This document shows positions 5,408-37,777 of a stretch of 44,895 nucleotides of DNA, one piece after another. The translations under genes were made by a program, and so were the position numbers. The stretch comes from Candidatus Magasanikiibacteriota bacterium. Lineage in GTDB: Bacteria; Patescibacteriota; Patescibacteriia; Magasanikbacterales; GWA2-37-8. Position 1 is the first letter of the stretch; each line of letters starts with the position of its first letter. Below the pieces are notes generated by a model, which saw only the letters and a list, made by a program, of their open reading frames with translations, searched no databases and was not told the origin of the DNA. The stretch spans positions 1 to 44,895 of the forward strand of contig SICD01000004.1 of assembly GCA_009694865.1 (NCBI GenBank), in the 5' to 3' direction.

Positions 5408-6079
5408 ATGCTCACCACCGAAAAATTTGCCGGCGATAAAAAGGTAGGCCTATCGCTCTTGGGAAAATGGGAGAAAAAATTTGTTGATGCCTACGTTGGA
5501 AAAATCCCCAAAAGCATTGAAACCTATCATCTCACACTCTCCACAATCGTCTGGTGCGCTTTTATTGTACTCTTTGGCTACCTCGCCAAATACGATGTCC
5601 GTTGGTTTTGGGGAACCAGCATAATGATTGTACTCCAATACCTCACCGACCTATTTGACGGCGCCGTGGGGCGGTACCGCAACACCGGCCTCATTCACTG
5701 GGGTTACTACATGGACCACTTTTTGGACTACATATTTTTATGCGCCGTCCTCATTGGTTACTCCTTCACTTTCCTGGATCGTTTTAATACCATCTTCTTT
5801 ATTTTAGCCAGCTACGGGGCTTTCATGGTCAATTCCTACCTCTCATTTTCCGCCACGAACGAATTCCGCATCGCCTACTTTAAAATCGGCCCTACCGAAA
5901 TTCGCCTGTCATTCATTATCACCAACATCTTAATTATATTTTCAAAAGACAAAGTACCGCTCACGAGCCTCCTCCCTATTATCTTTTGGTTGTCGATGGC
6001 TGGGCTAACCGTAGTTGTGTATACTACCCAAAAAATGATGTGGAAAAAAGATATGGAAAACAAAAAATCCCTTACTTAA
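5408..6079 (+). CDS. CDP-alcohol phosphatidyltransferase-like membrane protein
   Basis: DLFDGAVGRYRNTGLIHWGYYMDHFLD resembles the DGx2ARx8Gx3Dx3D motif (A to G, spacing one longer); multiple TM segments. Confidence 0.65.
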   Translation: MLTTEKFAGDKKVGLSLLGKWEKKFVDAYVGKIPKSIETYHLTLSTIVWCAFIVLFGYLAKYDVRWFWGTSIMIVLQYLTDLFDGAVGRYRNTGLIHWGYYMDHFLDYIFLCAVLIGYSFTFLDRFNTIFFILASYGAFMVNSYLSFSATNEFRIAYFKIGPTEIRLSFIITNILIIFSKDKVPLTSLLPIIFWLSMAGLTVVVYTTQKMMWKKDMENKKSLT

Positions 6080-6129
6080 AGAGATTTTTCGTATCTTTTA
6101 GCAACAAAATTTATTACTAAAAGACGATG

Positions 6130-6180
6130 AAGGACGATGCGAACTCTCTCCCTTCTTTCCTGCTCCTCGCATCGTCCTTT
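6130..6180 (-). terminator. Hairpin terminator for the minus-strand GC-rich ORF
   Basis: AAGGACGATGCGA ... TCGCATCGTCCTT inverted repeat just downstream of the 6196 stop. Confidence 0.65.
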
Positions 6181-6195
6181 CCTTTCTCCTTTTTG

Positions 6196-6681
6196 CTACC
6201 CCGTCGTGGGCTCCCAGCCATTCAGCTTTTTGCCGAGCGTCACTCCCCGGAGCAACAGCTTGTTCTTGATCTCGACCAGCCAACGCGCCACGTCGGTCTT
6301 GCGCTTGCCGTGGAGCTTGCCGCGCGCGATGATCTCACGCTCCGTCCACGCAACCAGCCGGCCGATGATGTCGGCCTCGAGGTTCACCCGGGCGAACTCC
6401 GCCGCCCCTCGTGAGAGCTTCAGCCCGCTGATGGGCTTGTTGAGCAGGTCGGGGTTGATGAAGGTGGCGCGATTGACCAGGGGCGACAAGGCCGAAGCCG
6501 GCGGTGCCGGCGGGGCGCTCTCGACACCCACCTTGATGCCAGGCACCAGGGTGGTGAGCACGTTGAAGAGCGCTTGAGTTATGGCTTCCCTGCCACTGTC
6601 GCTGATGACCCACAAACGGACATCGGTCTTCTCATCGACGAAGTGGTACACACCGCCGCTGCTTTCCGTGTCTTCCGGCAT
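6196..6681 (-). CDS. Orphan hypothetical protein in GC-rich island A
   Basis: 161 aa; RBS AAGGAGG just upstream of ATG; GC-rich codon choice unlike neighbours. Confidence 0.7.
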   Translation of the reverse strand: MPEDTESSGGVYHFVDEKTDVRLWVISDSGREAITQALFNVLTTLVPGIKVGVESAPPAPPASALSPLVNRATFINPDLLNKPISGLKLSRGAAEFARVNLEADIIGRLVAWTEREIIARGKLHGKRKTDVARWLVEIKNKLLLRGVTLGKKLNGWEPTTG

Positions 6682-6872
6682 GGCGCCTCCTTGTGTGAGT
6701 ACTGCGTTAAACTGCTGTTTTACTGATTGTTGGTCTTAAACTTATTTTAATTTAAGCTCAACAATTAGCCCGCGAGTCCCGACTTCCTGTGGTAGGAATG
6801 TCGAGACTCGCGTCTGTGTGCCGGCGCCATCTGGCCTTACGGGGCCAGTGGGCGCACGGGTGTCGCGCCTTT

Positions 6873-7272
6873 CTACGGGCGCACCATGTAATTGCCGTTC
6901 CCGGTCATCGCCTCCACCTGCAACTTGTAGCGGTCGTTGAATCGCAACTTGAAGCCCGGCATGTCGCTGACATCCACCGTGGTCGTGGCCTCGACGCCCT
7001 TGGTGTAGATGTACAGGCGGCTGGTCAGTGCCGCGGTCATCTCGAAGCGCCTGAAATTCCGTGAGGCGTTGTCGTCGGGGTGGACGGCCTTGAGAAGCTC
7101 CTGGGCATCGGGCAACTCGCCATTCGCAACCAGCCCGAGCCGTCCTTCCTTGGCCCAGAGCAAGCTGATGTCGAGTTTGGGGCCACTCTATCGCTCCGTC
7201 CACTCGGACGGTGACAAAGGGCTTGGTATCAGTCTTTTAGACTAACACTAAGCCTCTTACCAACTTTATCAT
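6873..7272 (-). pseudogene. Probably degraded GC-rich ORF (island A, second gene)
   Basis: GAGGAG-ATG at 7272 reads MIKLVRGLVLV then TAA (7239-7237); same frame continues KTDTKPFVTVRVDGAIEW, then a frame change is needed to enter PKLDISLLWAKEGRLGLV...GNYMVRP. Confidence 0.5.
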
Positions 7273-7309
7273 AAATCTCCTCTAAACTAAGCCAAAATTA
7301 TAACATTTG

Positions 7310-7338
7310 ATCATACCACAAAAGAAAGACGCCGTCAA
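7310..7338 (-). promoter_or_regulatory. Sigma70-like promoter for island A
   Basis: TTGACG - 17 nt - TATGAT upstream of GAGGAG-ATG. Confidence 0.6.
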
Positions 7339-7387
7339 GTCGTTTTTGCCTTTGTCCCACTCTACAAAATATGCTATACTAAATCTA

Positions 7388-7915
7388 ATGAACGACCCTA
7401 AACTAGAACCACAATTTAAGCCCACCCCCGAACAGCCGAGTGCCCCACGCACGGAGATTTTGGTTACTCCCAAACGAGAAACGGCCGAATCTAAGGATGA
7501 AGCCACCCCGCTCGAGATTGAAAAAGAAAAATCAACGGTACGAGAAATTAGCGAAATGATTGGCGGCCTCCTCCCGGGCAAACGCCGCCCCCGCCCAACC
7601 GCTATTCCCCAAGTACGCGATGGGGTGACCGTAAAAATAGAAAAAATTATGGAAGACGGAGTAGGCGACGCTTTTAGCCGTCTTTCGCCCGTAGCGCGCG
7701 AAGAATTCAAACTCAAGGGCGAAGAAACCGCCCGCGCCATTCGTCTGCTTCTCCAAAATACACATATTAAAGTCAAAAAAATATTTGAACTAATTTTAAA
7801 CTGGCTCCGCATGCTCCCGGGCATTAACCGATTCTTTTTAGAACAAGAAGCAAAAATAAAAACGGACCGCATCATCGCGATCCATGATAAAGAAATTGGG
7901 AAATTGGGAAATTAA
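7388..7915 (+). CDS. Hypothetical protein upstream of the VirD4-like gene
   Basis: MNDPKLEPQFKPTPEQPS...; C-terminus EIGKLGN* lies inside the repeat arm at 7890-7922. Confidence 0.7.
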   Translation: MNDPKLEPQFKPTPEQPSAPRTEILVTPKRETAESKDEATPLEIEKEKSTVREISEMIGGLLPGKRRPRPTAIPQVRDGVTVKIEKIMEDGVGDAFSRLSPVAREEFKLKGEETARAIRLLLQNTHIKVKKIFELILNWLRMLPGINRFFLEQEAKIKTDRIIAIHDKEIGKLGN

Positions 7916-12724: not shown

Positions 12725-12795
12725 TCCGAGATCGTCTAATGGTAGGACCCAAGACTCTGAATCTTGGTATCTAGGTTCGAATCCTAGTCTCGGAA
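12725..12795 (+). tRNA. tRNA-Gln (anticodon CUG)
   Basis: TCCGAGA/TCTCGGA acceptor, D arm, anticodon arm CAAGA-CTCTGAA-TCTTG (CTG), T arm CTAGG-TTCGAAT-CCTAG. Confidence 0.93.
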
Positions 12796-12800
12796 CAAAT

Positions 12801-12866
12801 AAAAAACCACCTGCTCGACATTTTCCACACTGGTGAAAAACAACGAGCATTGAGGTGGTTTTTTTC
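12801..12866. terminator. Bidirectional hairpin terminator between tRNA-Gln and island B
   Basis: AAAAAACCACCT...CGAGCATTGAGGTGGTTTTTTT. Confidence 0.8.
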
Positions 12867-12926
12867 GCTTAGCCTTGCCGCCACGATCCCCCGAACTGCC
12901 GGGACGTGGCGGGTGATGACTGCTCG

Positions 12927-13256
12927 CTAGAAGTCGACCACTTTGATGTGATCGGCAGTTCCGTGCTTCCAGCCCGGGTTGAACTCCGGCCGGTGGAACG
13001 TCCGGCGGTAGCGTCGATCGAGGCGACCATTATCGCCCCCTTGTCGCACCTGGGTCGCAGTCATGACGACGAGCGTAGCGGCGTGTCCGAATCCCCGCTT
13101 GATCGCCAGCCGCCAGGCCTCATCGACGGTTGGTGCCCGTCCCAGCTTCGCAACAGCGTTCGCGACCTGGTTCGCCTTCATCCCGTCCATGCCGGCGACG
13201 ATCTTCATCACGACTTCTCCACCTTTGCGAACCGTGACCAAACCTTGCGTGGCCAT
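12927..13256 (-). CDS. Orphan hypothetical protein in GC-rich island B
   Basis: MATQGLVTVRKGGEVVMKIVAGMDGMKANQVANAV...; RBS AGGAGGT, perfect promoter upstream, terminator downstream. Confidence 0.8.
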   Translation of the reverse strand: MATQGLVTVRKGGEVVMKIVAGMDGMKANQVANAVAKLGRAPTVDEAWRLAIKRGFGHAATLVVMTATQVRQGGDNGRLDRRYRRTFHRPEFNPGWKHGTADHIKVVDF

Positions 13257-13289
13257 TTCCACCTCCTGTCGTACATTCGACGACCAGGG

Positions 13290-13317
13290 AGTATAACAAA
13301 TAGTTCTATTTTGTCAA
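13290..13317 (-). promoter_or_regulatory. Sigma70-like promoter for island B
   Basis: TTGACA - 16 nt - TATACT; followed by GTCGT-N7-ACGAC hairpin before the RBS. Confidence 0.8.
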
Positions 13318-16320: not shown

Positions 16321-16599
16321 ATGGATAATTTAGAGTTTATTTAAAAATTGTCAGCCAAAGACTGATCCGCCTGTGGCGGATAAGATTACCAATAGTATAG
16401 CATATTTGCAAGAATTACGGAATAAAACAAAAAACAGCCTTAATAAAAGCTGCTTTAGTTCCTCCCCGATGCTACGTGTCGGGGATATCACGGCACGGCT
16501 ACGTGCGTTGTGAGTTTTGCGGTGGCCAGTGCCGCGCTAGCGTCCGCTCATCTTGCGAGAGCGTACGGCCCCATTGCGGGGCGGTTGGTTGGCCGATGA

Positions 16600-17013
16600 C
16601 TACTCTGCCTGTCGACGGAGACCGGAGTGCTCGCGGGACAGGACGCGGTCGTGCTGCCGGTATTCACCGGAACGCAGGTCGTAACACGCCTCGTCCTGGA
16701 AAATACAGTTCTGAGCCTTGCTGAAAGCGAGGACGACCGCGCGGACACCCTCACCCTTGGCCAGCTCGATGGTGATCTCCACTCGCTCGGAGAGCCCGAT
16801 CGCTGCCATGAGGTCGTTGAAGTCATCGTAACCGAGGTTCACCTTGATGCCCGCACAGCACATCAAAGCGATCTTCTGAGCGAACTCCATGACCGCGGAG
16901 ACACCCAGAAACTGATTGACCTCGTCTTCGGCGCTCCGGTTCAAGGTCTCCTTGAGCCAGGGATTGAAAAACGTCGTGCACTTCTTGACTCGGGTTCGCT
17001 TGGGCTTTTTCAT
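16600..17013 (-). CDS. Orphan hypothetical protein in GC-rich island C
   Basis: MKKPKRTRVKKCTTFFNPWLKETLNRSAEDEVNQFLGV...; RBS AAGGAG; GC-rich codons. Confidence 0.75.
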   Translation of the reverse strand: MKKPKRTRVKKCTTFFNPWLKETLNRSAEDEVNQFLGVSAVMEFAQKIALMCCAGIKVNLGYDDFNDLMAAIGLSERVEITIELAKGEGVRAVVLAFSKAQNCIFQDEACYDLRSGEYRQHDRVLSREHSGLRRQAE

Positions 17014-17079
17014 GCGATTTCTCCTTGTGGATTGGCTCGCTTGGGCCGTTAAGGGTGCATGCAATCGGCAGCGCCTTCC

Positions 17080-17114
17080 CTCTCTACCAAGCCAAGGCTT
17101 AGCGTAATAGAGAG
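17080..17114 (-). promoter_or_regulatory. Nested hairpin in 5' leader of island C ORF
   Basis: CTCTCTA...TAGAGAG enclosing AAGCC-AA-GGCTT. Confidence 0.65.
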
Positions 17115-17138
17115 AAAAACCGCATCTCAAAACAAATG

Positions 17139-17167
17139 ACTATATCACAAAAAACCAACCCTGTCAA
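17139..17167 (-). promoter_or_regulatory. Sigma70 consensus-like promoter for island C
   Basis: TTGACA - 17 nt - TATAGT on the minus strand. Confidence 0.8.
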
Positions 17168-28960: not shown

Positions 28961-30235
28961 CTATCCAATTTTAGCTGTGGGCATGGGTGGCGTCGACGCG
29001 TCCACGGCAATAAGCTGACGGTCGCCGCCGTGAGGAGTGCTACCAATAAGTGGGATGCTGACGTAGAAAGTGGTGCCTTTATTTTCTTCCGATTGAAACC
29101 AAATTTTGGCATTGGATGCTTCCACAATCATTTTAGAAATGTATAAACCAATGCCCGATCCTTCTGTAACGGCGTGAATAGCATTTTCGGTGCGGAAAAA
29201 CTTTTCAAAAATGCGCGGCTGGACATCTTTAGCTATGCCGATACCATCATCTTTCACGCTAATCACATAGTCTTTAGACTGACCCTTAAAAAGAGTTACT
29301 ACTACCGCACACTTGCCTTCAGTCGAATAACGAAGAGCGTTGGTAAGAAGATTGTGAACAACCTGACGCATAAGTACCCCATCGAGCGGAATAAGCGGAA
29401 CTTTTTCTGGCGGCTGATTGAATATAATAGTACAATTACGAGCGCGCGCCAATGGTTCAATTTCCTTAATAATATCATTTATAAAAGGTATTAATTCAAG
29501 GGGTTTTGGCTCAATTTTAAGCCGGCCTGATTCCAAACGCGACACGTTAAGAAATTCATTAACAATCTGGATCATGCGATGACTGCCTTTATACACTTCT
29601 TGCAAAAATGATTTTTGTTCATCGGTAATTGGTCCGGTGTCACCCGAAAGCAACATTTCAATATACCAATTGATGGCGGTCAACGGGGTCCTCAGCTGGT
29701 GCGAAGCCAGTGATACGAACTCAGTTTTAGCTTCATCGATTTCTTTCTCACGCGTAATATCCCGAAATGTTACCACCGCGCCGATAATTTTTTGCTTCAA
29801 TAGCACTGGGGCGGCGGTAACCGCCGCTGGAAAACGGGTTTTGGTATCAGACCGCACAAAATAATAGGTGGTGGTCGTGGCCGAAGTAGAAATAACTTTT
29901 TGACCGGAGGACGTGGCCAGATGTATTGGACGTCTCTCTGGAGAAAGTGGCGCCCCGTTTGATTCCACCATCGGAATAGCATCGACGACATATTTTCCCA
30001 CTACTTCCGCGAGCGGTAAACCAAGCAATTCTTCGGCCGCCCGGTTCATAAGCATGATTTTGCCCACATTATCAGTCACAATCAAACCATCGCCAATACT
30101 TGCCAAAAAAACTTTATCAAGTGCTTGTTCTTCGGCCAAGCGGCGACTCTGGCGCGCCACCCCAAAATTGAAACCAATAAGCGCCCCGGCAACGGCGACG
30201 CTTATTATTAAAAATAAAAAATAAAATAACCCCAT
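28961..30235 (-). CDS. Membrane-anchored PAS sensor histidine kinase
   Basis: PAS region, H-box LASHQLRTPLTAINWYIEM, N-box NLLTNALRYS, VKDDGIGIAKDVQPRIFEKFFR, GSGIGLYISKMIVE. Confidence 0.94.
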   Translation of the reverse strand: MGLFYFLFLIISVAVAGALIGFNFGVARQSRRLAEEQALDKVFLASIGDGLIVTDNVGKIMLMNRAAEELLGLPLAEVVGKYVVDAIPMVESNGAPLSPERRPIHLATSSGQKVISTSATTTTYYFVRSDTKTRFPAAVTAAPVLLKQKIIGAVVTFRDITREKEIDEAKTEFVSLASHQLRTPLTAINWYIEMLLSGDTGPITDEQKSFLQEVYKGSHRMIQIVNEFLNVSRLESGRLKIEPKPLELIPFINDIIKEIEPLARARNCTIIFNQPPEKVPLIPLDGVLMRQVVHNLLTNALRYSTEGKCAVVVTLFKGQSKDYVISVKDDGIGIAKDVQPRIFEKFFRTENAIHAVTEGSGIGLYISKMIVEASNAKIWFQSEENKGTTFYVSIPLIGSTPHGGDRQLIAVDASTPPMPTAKIG

Positions 30236-30243
30236 AAATCTTT

Positions 30244-30690
30244 CTAGCGGGTCACACTAATTACAGCGCCTTGTTCAGCGTTGGGAGCACTTACTGTGAC
30301 GCGATTATTGGCTGTTTTTACAATTCTATAACACACCCCATTCGCGTTACATCCACCCCCTGGATCGGTCGGCATAGCCGTCAAATATTTTTCACTAGCT
30401 GTCAAAACGCTCAAGTCGATTAGCCCGGCGCAATTGCCGCCGGTTTTACAAATTTCGGTTACAACATTAGTAATGCCCGGTGGAAGAGCGCCGTTAGAGT
30501 CAATCGCGTATTGATACACCGCATCAATAATTGTCTTAACATCCACCCGCCGCGTAGCGTTCCGCGTATCGCCCAATTGCTTGGTGGGATTAATGGCAAT
30601 AATAATGATACTGGCTAAAATAGAAATAGCCGCCACCACGAGCAAAATTTCAATTAAGGTAAACCCATGTTTATGTTCGTTGCTCATCAT
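30244..30690 (-). CDS. Pseudopilin
   Basis: HGFTLIEILLVVAAISILASIIIIAINPTKQLGDTRNATRRVDVKTIIDAVYQY. Confidence 0.93.
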   Translation of the reverse strand: MMSNEHKHGFTLIEILLVVAAISILASIIIIAINPTKQLGDTRNATRRVDVKTIIDAVYQYAIDSNGALPPGITNVVTEICKTGGNCAGLIDLSVLTASEKYLTAMPTDPGGGCNANGVCYRIVKTANNRVTVSAPNAEQGAVISVTR

Positions 30691-30699
30691 ACAAAAACA

Positions 30700-31200
30700 C
30701 TAGCGAGTTACGCTGATTACAGCTCCTTGTTCTGCTCCTGGGGCGCAAACTGTGATGCGTCCGTTGACTGATTTAGAAATTCTATAACACACCCCATTGG
30801 CATTACAGGCGGGAACGGTTTGATTGGGATCTTTGGGGAAGGCTGTCAAATATTTCTCAGCTAAAATTAAAGCGGAAATATCAACCACACCAGCCGCGCA
30901 GGGGGCGGTTTTACAAATTTCACTAGCGGCGAGCGCGCCCGAACAAACCCCAACCGGAATTGGACTTGCGACCGTATCTGGCAATTTGCCGCTGTTATCA
31001 ATTACATACTGATACACCGCGTCCAAAATCGTACCCACATCTACCCGGCGCTGGGCATTGCGAGTATCGGCCAATTGTTTACCGGGGTTAATAGCCACGA
31101 TTACTATACCGGCTAAAATTGCAATGGCCGCGACGACCAAAAGAATTTCGAGTAAAGTAAAACCGCCTGGCGTCTTGATGTGCTGATTATTTCTTCGCAT
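30700..31200 (-). CDS. Pseudopilin, tandem paralogue of 30244-30690
   Basis: GGFTLLEILLVVAAIAILAGIVIVAINPGKQLADTRNAQRRVDVGTILDAVYQY; start placed at MRRNNQH, longer ATG at 31218 possible. Confidence 0.92.
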   Translation of the reverse strand: MRRNNQHIKTPGGFTLLEILLVVAAIAILAGIVIVAINPGKQLADTRNAQRRVDVGTILDAVYQYVIDNSGKLPDTVASPIPVGVCSGALAASEICKTAPCAAGVVDISALILAEKYLTAFPKDPNQTVPACNANGVCYRISKSVNGRITVCAPGAEQGAVISVTR

Positions 31201-31282
31201 ATGATTTAACGAAATCATGCCTGATTCAACAGAATCATGTCGCGTAGTGTCCTTTGAAACGCGACCTGTCCTTTGAAGCGCG
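31201..31282 (-). promoter_or_regulatory. Twin-hairpin leader related to the secA leader
   Basis: CGCGTTTCAAAGGACACTACGCG, GATTCTGTTGAATC and ATGATTTCGTTAAATCAT hairpins; extra CGCGCTTCAAAGGACAGG copy upstream. Confidence 0.65.
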
Positions 31283-31366
31283 GCTTAAATAATAAATAAA
31301 TTATTCTATAGTATACCACACATCCTAGCAAAAGCTAAACAGCATCGACCATGGCCCTGTTGATAA

Positions 31367-31759
31367 CTAAAAATCCGGTACTTCCTGCCAGCTAATTATA
31401 TGAATCTGGGGATTAATCGCGTCTAAGATAATTTTTTCTTTGCGCGTAATCGTGCCAACTGTACCTAAGATAGTAATCTGGCGGTTCTCACCAGCAAACT
31501 TTATAACGGTATACGTACAAGTACCATCTCCCAAAATAATATTCGCTTGCCCGAAAAAATCGGTATTTCCGCGAACCTGTTCCAAGGCCTCTTCGGCGCA
31601 GGCATCGGACAACCATCGAGCCTGTGTCGATTGCTCCATTGCTAAACTTGTTTTACTGTTCCCCACTCCAAACCACAGCAGGGCCGCCCCAATACTAAAA
31701 CCCACCGCCCCAATTAAGAGAACACTTAGCAAAGTTATAAAACCGCGATTATTGATCAT
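31367..31759 (-). CDS. PilX-like pilus-locus membrane protein
   Basis: MINNRGFITLLSVLLIGAVGFSIGAALLWFG...QARWLSDACAEEALEQ in a pseudopilin cluster. Confidence 0.65.
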   Translation of the reverse strand: MINNRGFITLLSVLLIGAVGFSIGAALLWFGVGNSKTSLAMEQSTQARWLSDACAEEALEQVRGNTDFFGQANIILGDGTCTYTVIKFAGENRQITILGTVGTITRKEKIILDAINPQIHIISWQEVPDF

Positions 31760-31765
31760 ACAGAA

Positions 31766-32293
31766 TTATCGAAGGCTCGCCGAACCAATAAAATCTTTCT
31801 TGTAATTAAATTCATTGCGCCCAATAGGGTTAATATGAGTGATGGTAAAAGACAACTGTACCGTGCCGGATGTTTGCGGACGTGATAAATTCTTAAAATT
31901 AACTCCGCTCACTATTACTCGATTATTGGTCAATGCTACACTGGGAGCGTTACCCTCTTGCAATATTAAAGCGCCATTCTGCAGATTCACCACCGTCGGG
32001 CTCTTGGCGCCATCGAGGACAACAAAGTTAAGTGTTGAGCCGTTCCCTGGCGCCGCTGGAATGTTAATTTGAGTAGCATTGCGCATAAGTTGTGAAACGA
32101 TCGCCAAAACCTGTTGCCCCTGACCATCAACCTCGGCGATCACTTGACTGCGTACGCGCGTGCGGAGTAAAAAAGATAAAAAAACCGCCACCGTAGTCAA
32201 CATTATCGCGGCGCATGAAATATATAGCAGAAGTTCAATTAAGGTAAAACCCTTTCTGCCTAAGCTTGGTTCATTTATTTTGACATTTAACAT
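31766..32293 (-). CDS. PilW/GspJ-like pseudopilin
   Basis: GRKGFTLIELLLYISCAAIMLTTVAVFLSFLLRTR. Confidence 0.8.
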   Translation of the reverse strand: MLNVKINEPSLGRKGFTLIELLLYISCAAIMLTTVAVFLSFLLRTRVRSQVIAEVDGQGQQVLAIVSQLMRNATQINIPAAPGNGSTLNFVVLDGAKSPTVVNLQNGALILQEGNAPSVALTNNRVIVSGVNFKNLSRPQTSGTVQLSFTITHINPIGRNEFNYKKDFIGSASLR

Positions 32294-32311
32294 TTGGATT
32301 TTGATATTACA

Positions 32312-32803
32312 TTACGGACCTGGCGGAGGTGGCGGCACTACCACTCGACGCCAATTTGTGAGATAGGTGGTAAGATTAATTTGCCCGCTCCGACGGATGT
32401 TTTCTTGCCACGCAACCGTGGCAACTACTTTTTTTCGGTTCAAATCAAGACTCGTTATGGTAAGCTGGCGAGCATAAACACCAACAGTGTCGGAAACGCC
32501 GGAAAAAACCCACTGATTGTTGCTAACAGCCAAACCGTGGACGCCATCAACTAGGAGGGCATAATCCGCGTCACGCATATTGCGAACAGCGACCATCGAT
32601 TCATCGGCCAAAGCAACAGCCGCGCCGCGCTGACCAGCAATAACCACCGCTTCTTCTCCATATAACAATGTACCCGCCAATCCGGTGGTAATAAGCGCAA
32701 AAAGAGCCGAGGCTAAAATAACCTCAACAATAGTAAAACCGCTCGCTTGGTTTTTAGTAAGCCAGCGTGCCTTTGTTCGTAAGGGTAATTGTGTGAACAT
32801 CAT
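32312..32803 (-). CDS. PilV/GspI-like pseudopilin
   Basis: ASGFTIVEVILASALFALITTGLAGTLLYGEEA. Confidence 0.8.
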   Translation of the reverse strand: MMFTQLPLRTKARWLTKNQASGFTIVEVILASALFALITTGLAGTLLYGEEAVVIAGQRGAAVALADESMVAVRNMRDADYALLVDGVHGLAVSNNQWVFSGVSDTVGVYARQLTITSLDLNRKKVVATVAWQENIRRSGQINLTTYLTNWRRVVVPPPPPGP

Positions 32804-33218
32804 TATTAGAGGCGGTAAGAGTAAGCGCGCCGACGGGGGTCGGTTCGCCCAGGACTTTAGAGAAAACTATTTCCGACCAACCAGCGAAAATGATACCGGT
32901 AGAAAAAGTAAATACTTCATCGGCCGCCGTAATTCGACCGGCATAATTAGACCCTTGAAACAACGTCACAGTGCCGGGCGCCACCGCTACTCCCCAACTA
33001 GTATCGCCATCGTTGGCTTGAGCCAGAACTTGCGCGCGCCGCAAACTTTGCACAATGGAAGCTGTTGCGAGATCTAAATCATTCTTAACATACACCACCT
33101 GATAGAGCGGTAAAAAAATCCCCGCTAAAATTGCGATCAACGAAATCGCCAAAAACATTTCGATAAGCGTAAAACCGGGTGATTGTTTGGATTTGGAAAT
33201 TGATTGCGAGTACGACAT
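32754..33218 (-). CDS. FimT/GspH-like pseudopilin
   Basis: SPGFTLIEMFLAISLIAILAGIFLPLYQVVY. Confidence 0.82.
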   Translation of the reverse strand: MSYSQSISKSKQSPGFTLIEMFLAISLIAILAGIFLPLYQVVYVKNDLDLATASIVQSLRRAQVLAQANDGDTSWGVAVAPGTVTLFQGSNYAGRITAADEVFTFSTGIIFAGWSEIVFSKVLGEPTPVGALTLTASNNDVHTITLTNKGTLAY

Positions 33219-33234
33219 ACGACAAACAAATCAA

Positions 33235-34710
33235 TTACTCCCCCACCACATTCACGTACTTCGCTGACACCCACCCCAGCGCGGCATCGGGCAACACAAT
33301 TTGGTACCAATCACCCTCGCGGGCTTGAAAAGAATAGGCGGATCCGACCTGGGCTTTACCAATCACCTCGCCTTTAGTCGACGGCTCACGACGAATTTTG
33401 AGATAGCCAATTTCGGTGGGCAAAATAATAAGTTTGTTGGACTGCGAAGAAACGGGGGTCGAAGTGGCGACAACAACAGTTGCTGGAAAAAGCGTGGTTG
33501 CCGCGGGCGCAGAAACAACTGGTATAATTGATGTTTCTTCCGTTGCCGGCTGCGGAGCAGACACATCACTCGACTGACTCAAGCCGCCAATTAAACTATA
33601 AATTGGCAAAATGACCGAAAGCGCTACCGCGACCACTCCGAGCCACACCGTTACTAGCAGAATCGGCTCCAAAATCACCGTAAGATTTTTGGTAGTCAAC
33701 TCCGTTTTAGCCTCGTAGACAGCGCCAATATTTAATAAAGTTCCAGGAAGTTTGCCGGATTGTTCTCCAGCGCCAATGAGCTGTTGCATTGCCACGGGAA
33801 ACAATTTATGAGCGCCACGGTACAAACTAAAACTTTTACGAAATGAATTGCCTTCTTCCACGCGATCGTGGAGGTGCGTGTACAATCTTCGAAAACTACG
33901 AAAAACTGTCGCATCACGAATCGCGATCAGAGCGGCCGTAACGGGCAAGCCGGCTTCAAGCAAAGTTCCTAAAATATAGCCAAACCGACCAAGCTCCACT
34001 TCCTGAAGCAAACGGTTCACCCCGGGAGTATGAAATAAAATTGCTTGACCGATAAACTTAGTAGCGGGGAAAATAAATAAAAAATACAACCCCAGTGCGA
34101 TCACGAGCATCACGAACGGAATCACGATTGACCCCCATTTTCCCAAAAAAATTCCCACCGCCATCAGCACCCGCGTAATAAATGGAAGCGGTATGTTAAG
34201 ACCGGTAAAAATACTCGTGAGTCGCGGCAAAATAAACCAAGCGATACCTAAACCCACCACCAGCGCCAAACCAAGCACAAACAAGGGGTACATCATGGCC
34301 GAGCGCATTTTGGAACGAAAACTTTTTTCTTTGCGCTGTTGTTCCACAATCACGTTAAGATTATGAGACAAAGTACCAGCTTCCTCGCCAATTTTTATAA
34401 GCGCGGTAATATGGAGTGGCAACAATCCGCTTTTCTCAAACGCCCGCCAAATTTGCGAACCCGCCTCAATTTCACCTTGCACTTCAAACACAACTTGCTG
34501 TAAAGGCTTGGATTGAATGCTCGTTTTTATTGCCTCCAGTGCCGTTAACACATCCATGCCAGCCGACACGAGCATGGCAAAATTTTCCACAAAATTATCT
34601 TTTTCTTTGCCCGAACCAATCAACGAAAGACGACGAAAAAACCGAGATTGTGAGACAGACACGGCAGGTCGCGACAATTTGGTTTCGCTATTTTGAACTT
34701 TGGATTTCAT
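33235..34710 (-). CDS. pilC: Type IV pilus inner membrane protein PilC with C-terminal SH3b domain
   Basis: Type II secretion F repeats, then Pro/Ser/Thr linker and GYLKIRREPSTKGEVIGKAQVGSAYSFQAREGDWYQIVLPDAALGWVSAKYV. Confidence 0.93.
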   Translation of the reverse strand: MKSKVQNSETKLSRPAVSVSQSRFFRRLSLIGSGKEKDNFVENFAMLVSAGMDVLTALEAIKTSIQSKPLQQVVFEVQGEIEAGSQIWRAFEKSGLLPLHITALIKIGEEAGTLSHNLNVIVEQQRKEKSFRSKMRSAMMYPLFVLGLALVVGLGIAWFILPRLTSIFTGLNIPLPFITRVLMAVGIFLGKWGSIVIPFVMLVIALGLYFLFIFPATKFIGQAILFHTPGVNRLLQEVELGRFGYILGTLLEAGLPVTAALIAIRDATVFRSFRRLYTHLHDRVEEGNSFRKSFSLYRGAHKLFPVAMQQLIGAGEQSGKLPGTLLNIGAVYEAKTELTTKNLTVILEPILLVTVWLGVVAVALSVILPIYSLIGGLSQSSDVSAPQPATEETSIIPVVSAPAATTLFPATVVVATSTPVSSQSNKLIILPTEIGYLKIRREPSTKGEVIGKAQVGSAYSFQAREGDWYQIVLPDAALGWVSAKYVNVVGE

Positions 34711-34727
34711 ACAAAAAGTTGTCATCC

Positions 34728-36985: not shown

Positions 36986-37125
36986 AAAGTAATCAGAAGC
37001 TGAAGATAAATCAAATAAACTGGTGCCGCTTATTCCAGTGGTTTAATTATACCATAAATAGTGAAAGCGACCTATATACTTGACAAAATACAAATTATAT
37101 AATACTGTTTGATGTTAAATTGTAA

Positions 37126-37187
37126 CTTGAGAATCTGCTTGATCCCGCCGTAGCGATGATGCTACGTTGAATCAATGGGGTCTCAAG
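37126..37187 (+). promoter_or_regulatory. Nested hairpin leader of island D ORF
   Basis: CTTGAGA...TCTCAAG enclosing TTGAT...ATCAA and CGTAGC-GATGAT-GCTACG. Confidence 0.7.
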
Positions 37188-37213
37188 ACCGCGCAACAAC
37201 GAGGGAGCGTGCC

Positions 37214-37657
37214 ATGAAAATGGATAAGATGCGGAAGTACGCCCTGGCCAAGCGGGCGCGAATGATCCTCGGAGTGGTCATTGGGTTGGCGATCCTGGTC
37301 GGCTCCATCCTGGGCTCCCGCCAGGAGCTGATCATGCGGCGAGGCCAACAGGGCAGCGAGATCACGCTCGAGGTCGCGATCTTCCTCGCCATCGCGATCC
37401 TGGCGCTGGGGTCGGTGATCGCCCTCGCCGTCGTGCAGCACATCTGGATACTCCCCGTCGAGGAGGAGCTGCACAAGGTGCACTTGGAGAAGTACAAAGG
37501 GCAGCTCGACGCGGCAGTCAAGGCCGCGTGGGAGAAGGTGGCAGTCGTCCGGGCCGAGGTGAAAGAAAAAGAGCGAGAACTCGAAGAAGCCAAGGCAATG
37601 GTCGCGGCCCTTCGCCGGCACGATCGGATGGATTCCAAACGGCGACCGAAGGCGTAA
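37214..37657 (+). CDS. Orphan small membrane protein, two TM segments plus coiled coil (GC-rich island D)
   Basis: RBS GAGGGAG upstream of ATG; MILGVVIGLAILVGSIL, VAIFLAIAILALGSVIALAVVQHIWIL, then charged heptad-like helix. Confidence 0.78.
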   Translation: MKMDKMRKYALAKRARMILGVVIGLAILVGSILGSRQELIMRRGQQGSEITLEVAIFLAIAILALGSVIALAVVQHIWILPVEEELHKVHLEKYKGQLDAAVKAAWEKVAVVRAEVKEKERELEEAKAMVAALRRHDRMDSKRRPKA

Positions 37658-37673
37658 CGTCGCAACGAGCGCC

Positions 37674-37777
37674 AACCCACCCTCGGCTTCCGAGGGTGTG
37701 GGACCAAGAGAAACAACAAAACCACCTCACCTAATGAGCTTTAAAAAAAATTTAAAATTCATTAGGGTGGTTTTGTA
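37674..37777 (+). terminator. Two consecutive terminator hairpins after island D ORF
   Basis: CCCACCCTCGG-CTT-CCGAGGGTGTGGG; AAAACCACCTCACCTAATGA...TCATTAGGGTGGTTTT. Confidence 0.8.

Follow-up and report, generated by a model that had tools for sequence, protein, structure and literature searches.

Dispersed GC-rich, self-contained gene cassettes, probably acquired horizontally, in a small Patescibacteria genome

Four GC-rich intergenic islands in a Patescibacteria contig probably belong to a genome-wide population of horizontally acquired, moron-like cassettes, each holding a single gene or sometimes two, drawn from a GC-rich pool. These genes form a distinct codon class with distinct expression signals; they are inserted as units, their sites turn over among relatives, and common 3′ modules follow ORFs that are otherwise unrelated. 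The window, which is the whole 44,895-nucleotide stretch of DNA analyzed, is contig C24 of the study genome G000, a Patescibacteria MAG of 987 kb (~0.99 Mb) whose fragmented assembly comprises 55 contigs, with a completeness of 94.7% and a contamination of 0.94%. Genes were called on 986 kb of joined G000 sequence with a purpose-written two-model gene finder, and promoters and terminators are consensus calls from sequence.

GC content in the window peaks at the four islands named in the initial annotation of this DNA (GC 0.58-0.61), with maxima at 6251-7250 (0.60), 12751-13250 (0.58), 16501-17000 (0.60), and 37251-37750 (0.61), against a background of ~0.45. The same annotation had assigned a terminator to each island and promoters to at least three, and both assignments are borne out: hairpin or terminator-like structures lie 3′ of A1, B, C, and D, and every island begins, on its 5′ side, with a promoter-like site. 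The strong ribosome-binding site that it had attributed to every island is present in A1, B, and C, but that of D is weaker. The four islands show no DNA-level similarity to one another. Their features are as follows.

6094-7345, minus strand: island A, GC ~0.60, flanked by the native genes at 5408-6079 and 7460-7915
6196-6681, minus strand: ORF A1, 161 aa, GC3 0.85, no family
6686-6692, minus strand: Shine-Dalgarno (SD) sequence of A1, AAGGAGG
6120-6192, minus strand: hairpin or terminator-like element 3′ of A1, GGACGATGCGA...TCGCATCGTCC
6873-7163, minus strand: A2 remnant, GC3 0.88, paralog of C48:22999-23445
7310-7338, minus strand: 5′-terminal promoter-like site of island A, TTGACG-17-TATGAT
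12803-13317, minus strand: cassette B, from the -35 box through the bulged hairpin, adjoining tRNA-Gln(CTG) at 12725-12796
12927-13256, minus strand: ORF B, 109 aa, GC3 0.74-0.78
13262-13267, minus strand: SD of B, AGGAGG
13290-13317, minus strand: promoter-like site of B, TTGACA-16-TATACT
12863-12914, minus strand: GC-rich 3′ module of B, CCGCCAC...GTGGCGGCAAGGCTAAGCG
12803-12862, minus strand: bulged hairpin ending cassette B, with a 10-bp outer stem and a 5′ bulge of 4 nt, CAAT
16432-17167, minus strand: cassette C, from the -35 box through the terminator-like hairpin
16600-17013, minus strand: ORF C, 137 aa, GC3 0.78, no family
17021-17026, minus strand: SD of C, AAGGAG
17139-17167, minus strand: promoter-like site of C, TTGACA-17-TATAGT, followed by a stable leader hairpin
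16432-16456, minus strand: terminator-like hairpin of C
37080-37775, plus strand: cassette D, from the -35 box through the bulged hairpin
37214-37657, plus strand: ORF D, 147 aa, GC3 0.83, no family
37201-37207, plus strand: weak SD of D, GAGGGAG
37080-37108, plus strand: promoter-like site of D, TTGACA-17-TACTGT
37717-37775, plus strand: bulged hairpin ending cassette D, with a 10-bp outer stem and a 5′ bulge of 4 nt, TCAC

The small ORFs ascribed to island A are upheld in part. A1 is intact, with no obvious promoter of its own, but A2 is an N-terminally truncated paralog (43% identity) of a C48-encoded protein of 148 aa and is therefore best read as a remnant. A genome-wide scan found no A2 homologs in other Patescibacteria, and no A1 homolog occurs in the 94 other genomes searched; the single match to A1, to the RNA polymerase alpha C-terminal region, is weak and below threshold (E 0.007), and its AlphaFold model is poor. 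Membrane segments and a coiled coil can be read from the sequence of ORF D.

The codon usage of the islands, which had been expected to be distinct, proves to be that of a class extending over the genome. The GC content of third codon positions (GC3) is bimodal among 760 genes of G000, with two Gaussians at 0.472 (sd 0.055) and 0.844 (sd 0.065) that carry weights of 0.91 for native and 0.09 for GC-rich genes. The BIC is -1745 for two components versus -1044 for one, and only 3 genes of at least 60 aa have a GC3 of 0.62-0.70. The GC-rich class comprises ~78 genes (9%) with a median length of 126 aa, scattered over the chromosome and rarely found in operons (4 of 78, versus 161 of 700 native genes); the window contributes five members, the intact A1, B, C, and D and the remnant A2. 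Most of the class proteins have no family match. The earlier statement that the island proteins resemble neither one another nor recognized families is thus valid for the bulk of the class. Among the proteins that depart from it are a response regulator, NDK, and MYG1-like, metallo-β-lactamase-fold, PRPP-synthetase-like, and TPR/OmpA lipoprotein members. The possibility that the islands encode noncoding RNAs was rejected, as frame-specific GC3 shows that they are coding.

The class is also present in relatives from the same family and order, including genomes of 38-40% GC. Cassette GC3 is 0.81-0.89 across genomes in which native GC3 ranges from 0.33 to 0.62, the cross-genome cassette means being biased somewhat upward because the set was chosen by a GC3 threshold. 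Such near-constancy, together with a mild correlation with host GC3 across 8 genomes, is as expected of a common GC-rich source followed by slow amelioration.

The signals surrounding these genes also differ from those of native genes, most markedly in translation initiation. Scores of at least 15.5 against a sigma70-type promoter consensus are reached by 48% of cassette genes, compared with 21% of native genes and 1-3% of shuffled sequences. The GC content of cassettes is 0.38 upstream of the -10 box, begins to increase only downstream of that box, reaches 0.6 inside the ORF, and drops ~75 nt past the stop codon. A strong SD precedes 47% of cassette genes versus 3% of native genes; when the SD term is taken out of the gene finder the values are 41% and 1%, the latter equal to background, and only 1 of 34 native genes with starts co-aligned to G001 orthologs has a strong SD. 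Despite native genes that are essentially free of SD sequences, the 16S rRNA of G000 (C35:18176) retains an intact anti-SD, GGATCACCTCCTTT. In relatives, strong SD sequences precede 10 of 40 cassette genes versus 11 of 787 native genes; in the low-GC relatives G018 and G021, most GC-rich genes are without one. Leader structure is likewise stronger in cassettes, with a mean z of -1.8 versus -0.5 for native genes. BoxA-like leaders were considered as a feature of the class and rejected, there being few strong cases and weak enrichment; boxA-like sequences (AGCTCTTTAACAA, AGCTCTTTTACAA) do occur in the G000 cassette leaders C48:22999, C30:7770, and C46:151. The flanks of the last two are 99% identical, and these could represent a single locus interrupted where two contigs end.

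Comparison of orthologous sites indicates that the islands are not fixed in their syntenic positions, a check that the initial annotation had suggested. Orthologs of the genes flanking island A are adjacent in the relative G013, 75 bp apart and with no island between them, and G001 lacks island A as well. The island C site in G001 is instead occupied by a different GC-rich cassette and a HicAB-like pair (L165:2150-3450, a toxin-antitoxin pair as read by eye), and the B site in that genome is rearranged, other genes taking up ~7 kb there. For three further cassettes, C7:53719, C25:6355, and C55:16211, G001 has clean empty sites, at which the gaps between flanking genes are 746 versus 33 bp, 1003 versus 60 bp, and 650 versus 84 bp in G000 and G001, respectively. 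At C7:53719 and C25:6355 the AT-rich promoter lies inside the insert, and the arriving unit therefore runs from promoter to terminator. The family of C1:3006 recurs in G005, at a site without such a gene in G000. Neither target duplications nor a fixed insertion site were seen at the examined insertions, and the heptamer CTAAGCG was rejected as an insertion core, being found at only 6 of 78 cassettes. The chromosomal neighbors of the window cassettes are native Patescibacteria genes with orthologs in relatives; binning contamination was rejected, as the islands lie within contigs and between genes of this kind. The cassettes therefore show both marks of horizontal acquisition, an unusual codon usage and a patchy occupancy of orthologous sites. 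The earlier view of the islands as acquired, self-contained units is well supported by the codon class, from their own promoters, SD sequences, and terminators, and from empty sites at which promoter and terminator fall within the insert.

The same sites bear on the alternative that these are resident genes under a special regime, their codons and signals having been shaped by selection so that, under certain conditions, SD sequences drive a high level of expression. One cassette gene, C18:46235, is conserved in place in G001 with 47% protein identity, between flanks that are 78-89% identical; it is still GC-rich and has been in place since the genus ancestor. The existence in G000 of tRNAs for C- and G-ending codons would also suit residents, as would a mild correlation between cassette GC3 and host GC3 (r 0.78, 8 genomes). 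Empty orthologous sites disfavor this alternative, however, as do the lack of homologs in most relatives and the sharp GC boundaries at insert ends, and it is accordingly regarded as highly improbable.

Under the preferred explanation of acquired moron-like cassettes, each would be inserted in intergenic DNA as a complete transcription unit, in which a consensus promoter that is AT-rich is followed by a structured leader and a strong SD, then by the ORF and a 3′ tail, both GC-rich, and finally by a terminator or hairpin. As the unit brings its own signals, it is predicted to be expressible wherever it is inserted, like a phage moron, in a genome that is poor in SD sequences. The GC-rich ORFs would be of outside origin and may be exchanged between related Patescibacteria and large phages, possibly also with bacteria of high GC content that serve as hosts or prey. 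Uptake could proceed via natural DNA import, and insertion via illegitimate recombination or via recombination at shared 5′ and 3′ modules, the latter being a possible route. Evidence that counts against this explanation includes the lack of any match for most of the proteins, the AT-rich promoters of the inserts, the presence of only one tyrosine recombinase and no Y1 transposase in G000, the insertions without target duplications or a fixed site, the scarcity of strong SD sequences before GC-rich genes of G018 and G021, the long residence of C18:46235, and the restriction of the strict hairpin described below to a minority of cassettes.

As to donors, lipoproteins of Gram-negative type point to GC-rich bacteria and protein B to large phages. 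A lipoprotein signal is found in 6.4% of cassette proteins versus 0.1% of native proteins; one cassette protein is a TPR/TSP3/OmpA lipoprotein matched by TraB-type and OmpA models, and some cassette lipoproteins carry PDL repeats. (A missing lipoprotein signal peptidase was considered and rejected, as the enzyme is present in G000.) Together with a use of SD sequences like that of most bacteria, these proteins are what direct DNA uptake from a GC-rich host or prey would explain, with AT-rich promoters and terminators that arose or were captured later; Myxococcota may be among the candidate donors, as judged from the style of the proteins. Nearly complete absence of database matches for most of the class argues the other way, and recurring AT-rich promoters and shared 3′ modules would be unexpected from independent chromosome fragments, so that this reading is considered unlikely. 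The GC-rich host suggested at the outset would suit a small number of lipoproteins and OmpA/TPR proteins, but it does not readily account for AT-rich promoters unlike those of simple GC-rich chromosome fragments.

The connection with phages comes through protein B, homologs of which are rare. They are found in the relative G093, in a Nealsonbacteria MAG, in a 103-kb viral contig, and as gp18 of the 309-kb phage Tunturi_5, the viral contig and the phage both having a GC content of ~58-59%. The genome-wide scan detected B in two other Patescibacteria only, one further weak match was obtained among 383 other genomes of the phylum, and no plasmid source was found. The Nealsonbacteria homolog stands isolated between lysS- and murG-like genes, in a cassette complete with promoter, SD, and terminator, but its codons are AT-rich. 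The AlphaFold model of B is a confident α/β structure (pLDDT 86.7) for which a fold search gave no significant match; a reading of B as an Ntn-hydrolase was rejected, since proteasome chains recur among the matches with a best E of 0.39, far from significance.

Phage morons are autonomous genes situated between phage genes, each with its own promoter and terminator and with atypical GC content. The G000 cassettes resemble them in being single genes with their own promoters and terminators and an atypical composition, placed between resident genes, and cassette B has relatives in large phages. Unlike morons, the cassettes are chromosomal and dispersed, at ~78 per genome and not in a phage or prophage; they share 3′ modules, are led by SD sequences in an SD-poor genome, and mostly have no phage relatives. 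That they are phage morons in the strict sense, brought by Patescibacteria phages or left from decayed prophages, would account for the moron-like architecture and the viral homologs of B. No phage match was obtained, however, for A1, C, or D or for nine further cassette proteins (~1500 aa), PHROG matches among cassette proteins are few and mostly without function, and no phage structural genes were recognized beside the window cassettes. This origin, also raised in the initial annotation, has direct support for B only and is decidedly unlikely for the class.

The 3′ ends of the cassettes raise a different question. About a fifth of cassettes, B and D among them, end in a bulged hairpin located 43-97 nt past the stop codon, built of an outer stem of 8-11 bp, a bulge of 3-6 nt (mostly 4-5) on the 5′ strand only, and a long inner stem. 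A strict scan identified it after 14 of 76 cassette genes but only 6 of 670 native ones, for an odds ratio of 25 and a P value of 1e-10 that is optimistic because the motif was first noticed in G000 itself; the expectation from shuffled sequences is 0.05. Bulges of 1-9 nt were allowed, and only lengths of 4-6 were obtained. In relatives, the hairpin follows 7 of 40 cassette genes versus 2 of 787 native genes, three of these seven coming from G006 loci examined after the definition had been fixed. Similarity at 3′ ends extends beyond the hairpin: the 112 nt after the stop codon of B are ~80% identical to the corresponding stretch of a C33 cassette although the two proteins have no similarity, the B module is partly common to a G001 cassette, and the 3′ region of C is similar to those of cassettes C11:47320 and C11:56438. 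For the bulged hairpins, Rfam gave nothing beyond generic hairpin hits, which fall far short of its thresholds. A viral contig bearing the GGCRAGGCTAAGCGRAAA motif was rejected as a chance match within a phage gene. Other dispersed hairpin repeats (ATCTCTGGCTCACTC..., AATGTCAAATCAAG...) are seen in native intergenic DNA of G000, for example at C11:3864-3925 and C28:4219-4264. Within the preferred explanation, the bulged hairpin may be a stabilizer of mRNA 3′ ends or a termination element.

It might alternatively be the recognition element of a dispersed mobile cassette system, in which an ORF and its structured 3′ element are recognized by a recombinase or a single-strand mechanism, as in integrons. 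The same 3′ module on unrelated ORFs is in keeping with this, and the bulge lies nearly always on the 5′ strand in the coding sense (14 versus 2, both of the opposite cases being alternative readings of sense hits). Furthermore, the paralogous pair C9:9648 and C17:371 preserves the hairpin by compensatory changes, and G000 and G001 have different cassettes at one site. The outer stem nevertheless has no conserved core sequence, the strict hairpin is missing from most cassettes, and insertions have no fixed target. Neither an integron-type integrase nor a Y1 transposase was found in G000, and its only tyrosine recombinase is not beside any cassette array. A dedicated mobility system is therefore not claimed, and this mechanism is judged quite unlikely. 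Somewhat broader, and doubtful, is the proposal of a dispersed integron-like system of the Patescibacteria, in which unrelated orphan genes would move as expression-ready units, each delimited by a 5′ promoter/SD module and a 3′ bulged-hairpin module, and would bring a second, SD-based translation regime into genomes that otherwise make no use of it.

Integron gene cassettes consist of an ORF and an attC site with a conserved core and paired R and L boxes. The cassettes described here are comparable in their single, mostly orphan ORFs and in a structured 3′ element that recurs in similar form on unrelated ORFs. They differ in being dispersed, with their own promoters, without arrays, and without an integron integrase, and in lacking an attC core sequence and having a different hairpin geometry.

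The setting of horizontal transfer is shared with the genomic islands and individually transferred genes treated by Gios et al. 2025 (PMC12455944), who report that horizontal transfer accounts for as much as 13% of the length of Patescibacteria genomes and that most individual transfers are between Patescibacteria. A keyword scan of that text found no mention of codons and no GC-rich, SD-led, stand-alone class sharing hairpins. Descriptions of such a cassette class, or of SD avoidance in Patescibacteria, were not found in the openly accessible literature; as far as this search reaches, the signature of the class appears to be undescribed. The genome-wide extent, the SD contrast, and the 3′ modules go beyond what had been noted. 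As cassettes make up about a tenth of genes and are recognizable by SD, GC3, and 3′ hairpin, they offer a way to list recently imported genes, and such lists bear on the partners of the uncultured Patescibacteria, whose small genomes have few known functions. They also allow one to ask whether a single cell can run two regimes of translation initiation side by side. Should recombination prove to take place at the 3′ module, this would represent a new mechanism of gene capture.

Several other features of G000 were observed. The family that includes C1:3006-3764 and L089:17886-18623 has a C-terminal LCAGSRxxDGxVP motif and shows 57% identity between genera, at different genomic sites. Its variable tail resembles a diversity-generating target, and a diversity-generating retroelement was rejected for C1:3006, no template repeat having been found in G000. 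A reverse-transcriptase (RVT_1) fragment at C53:21303-21500 (L186) adjoins two GC-rich ORFs. Unlike the dispersed cassettes, C25:11964-16813 is a dense run of GC-rich ORFs with local GC up to 0.81 and could be a larger foreign element. Within the window, pilin-like genes (GFTLIEILL) and others of pilus type follow one another at 28961-34725; as annotated by eye, they suggest type IV pili and possible DNA uptake.
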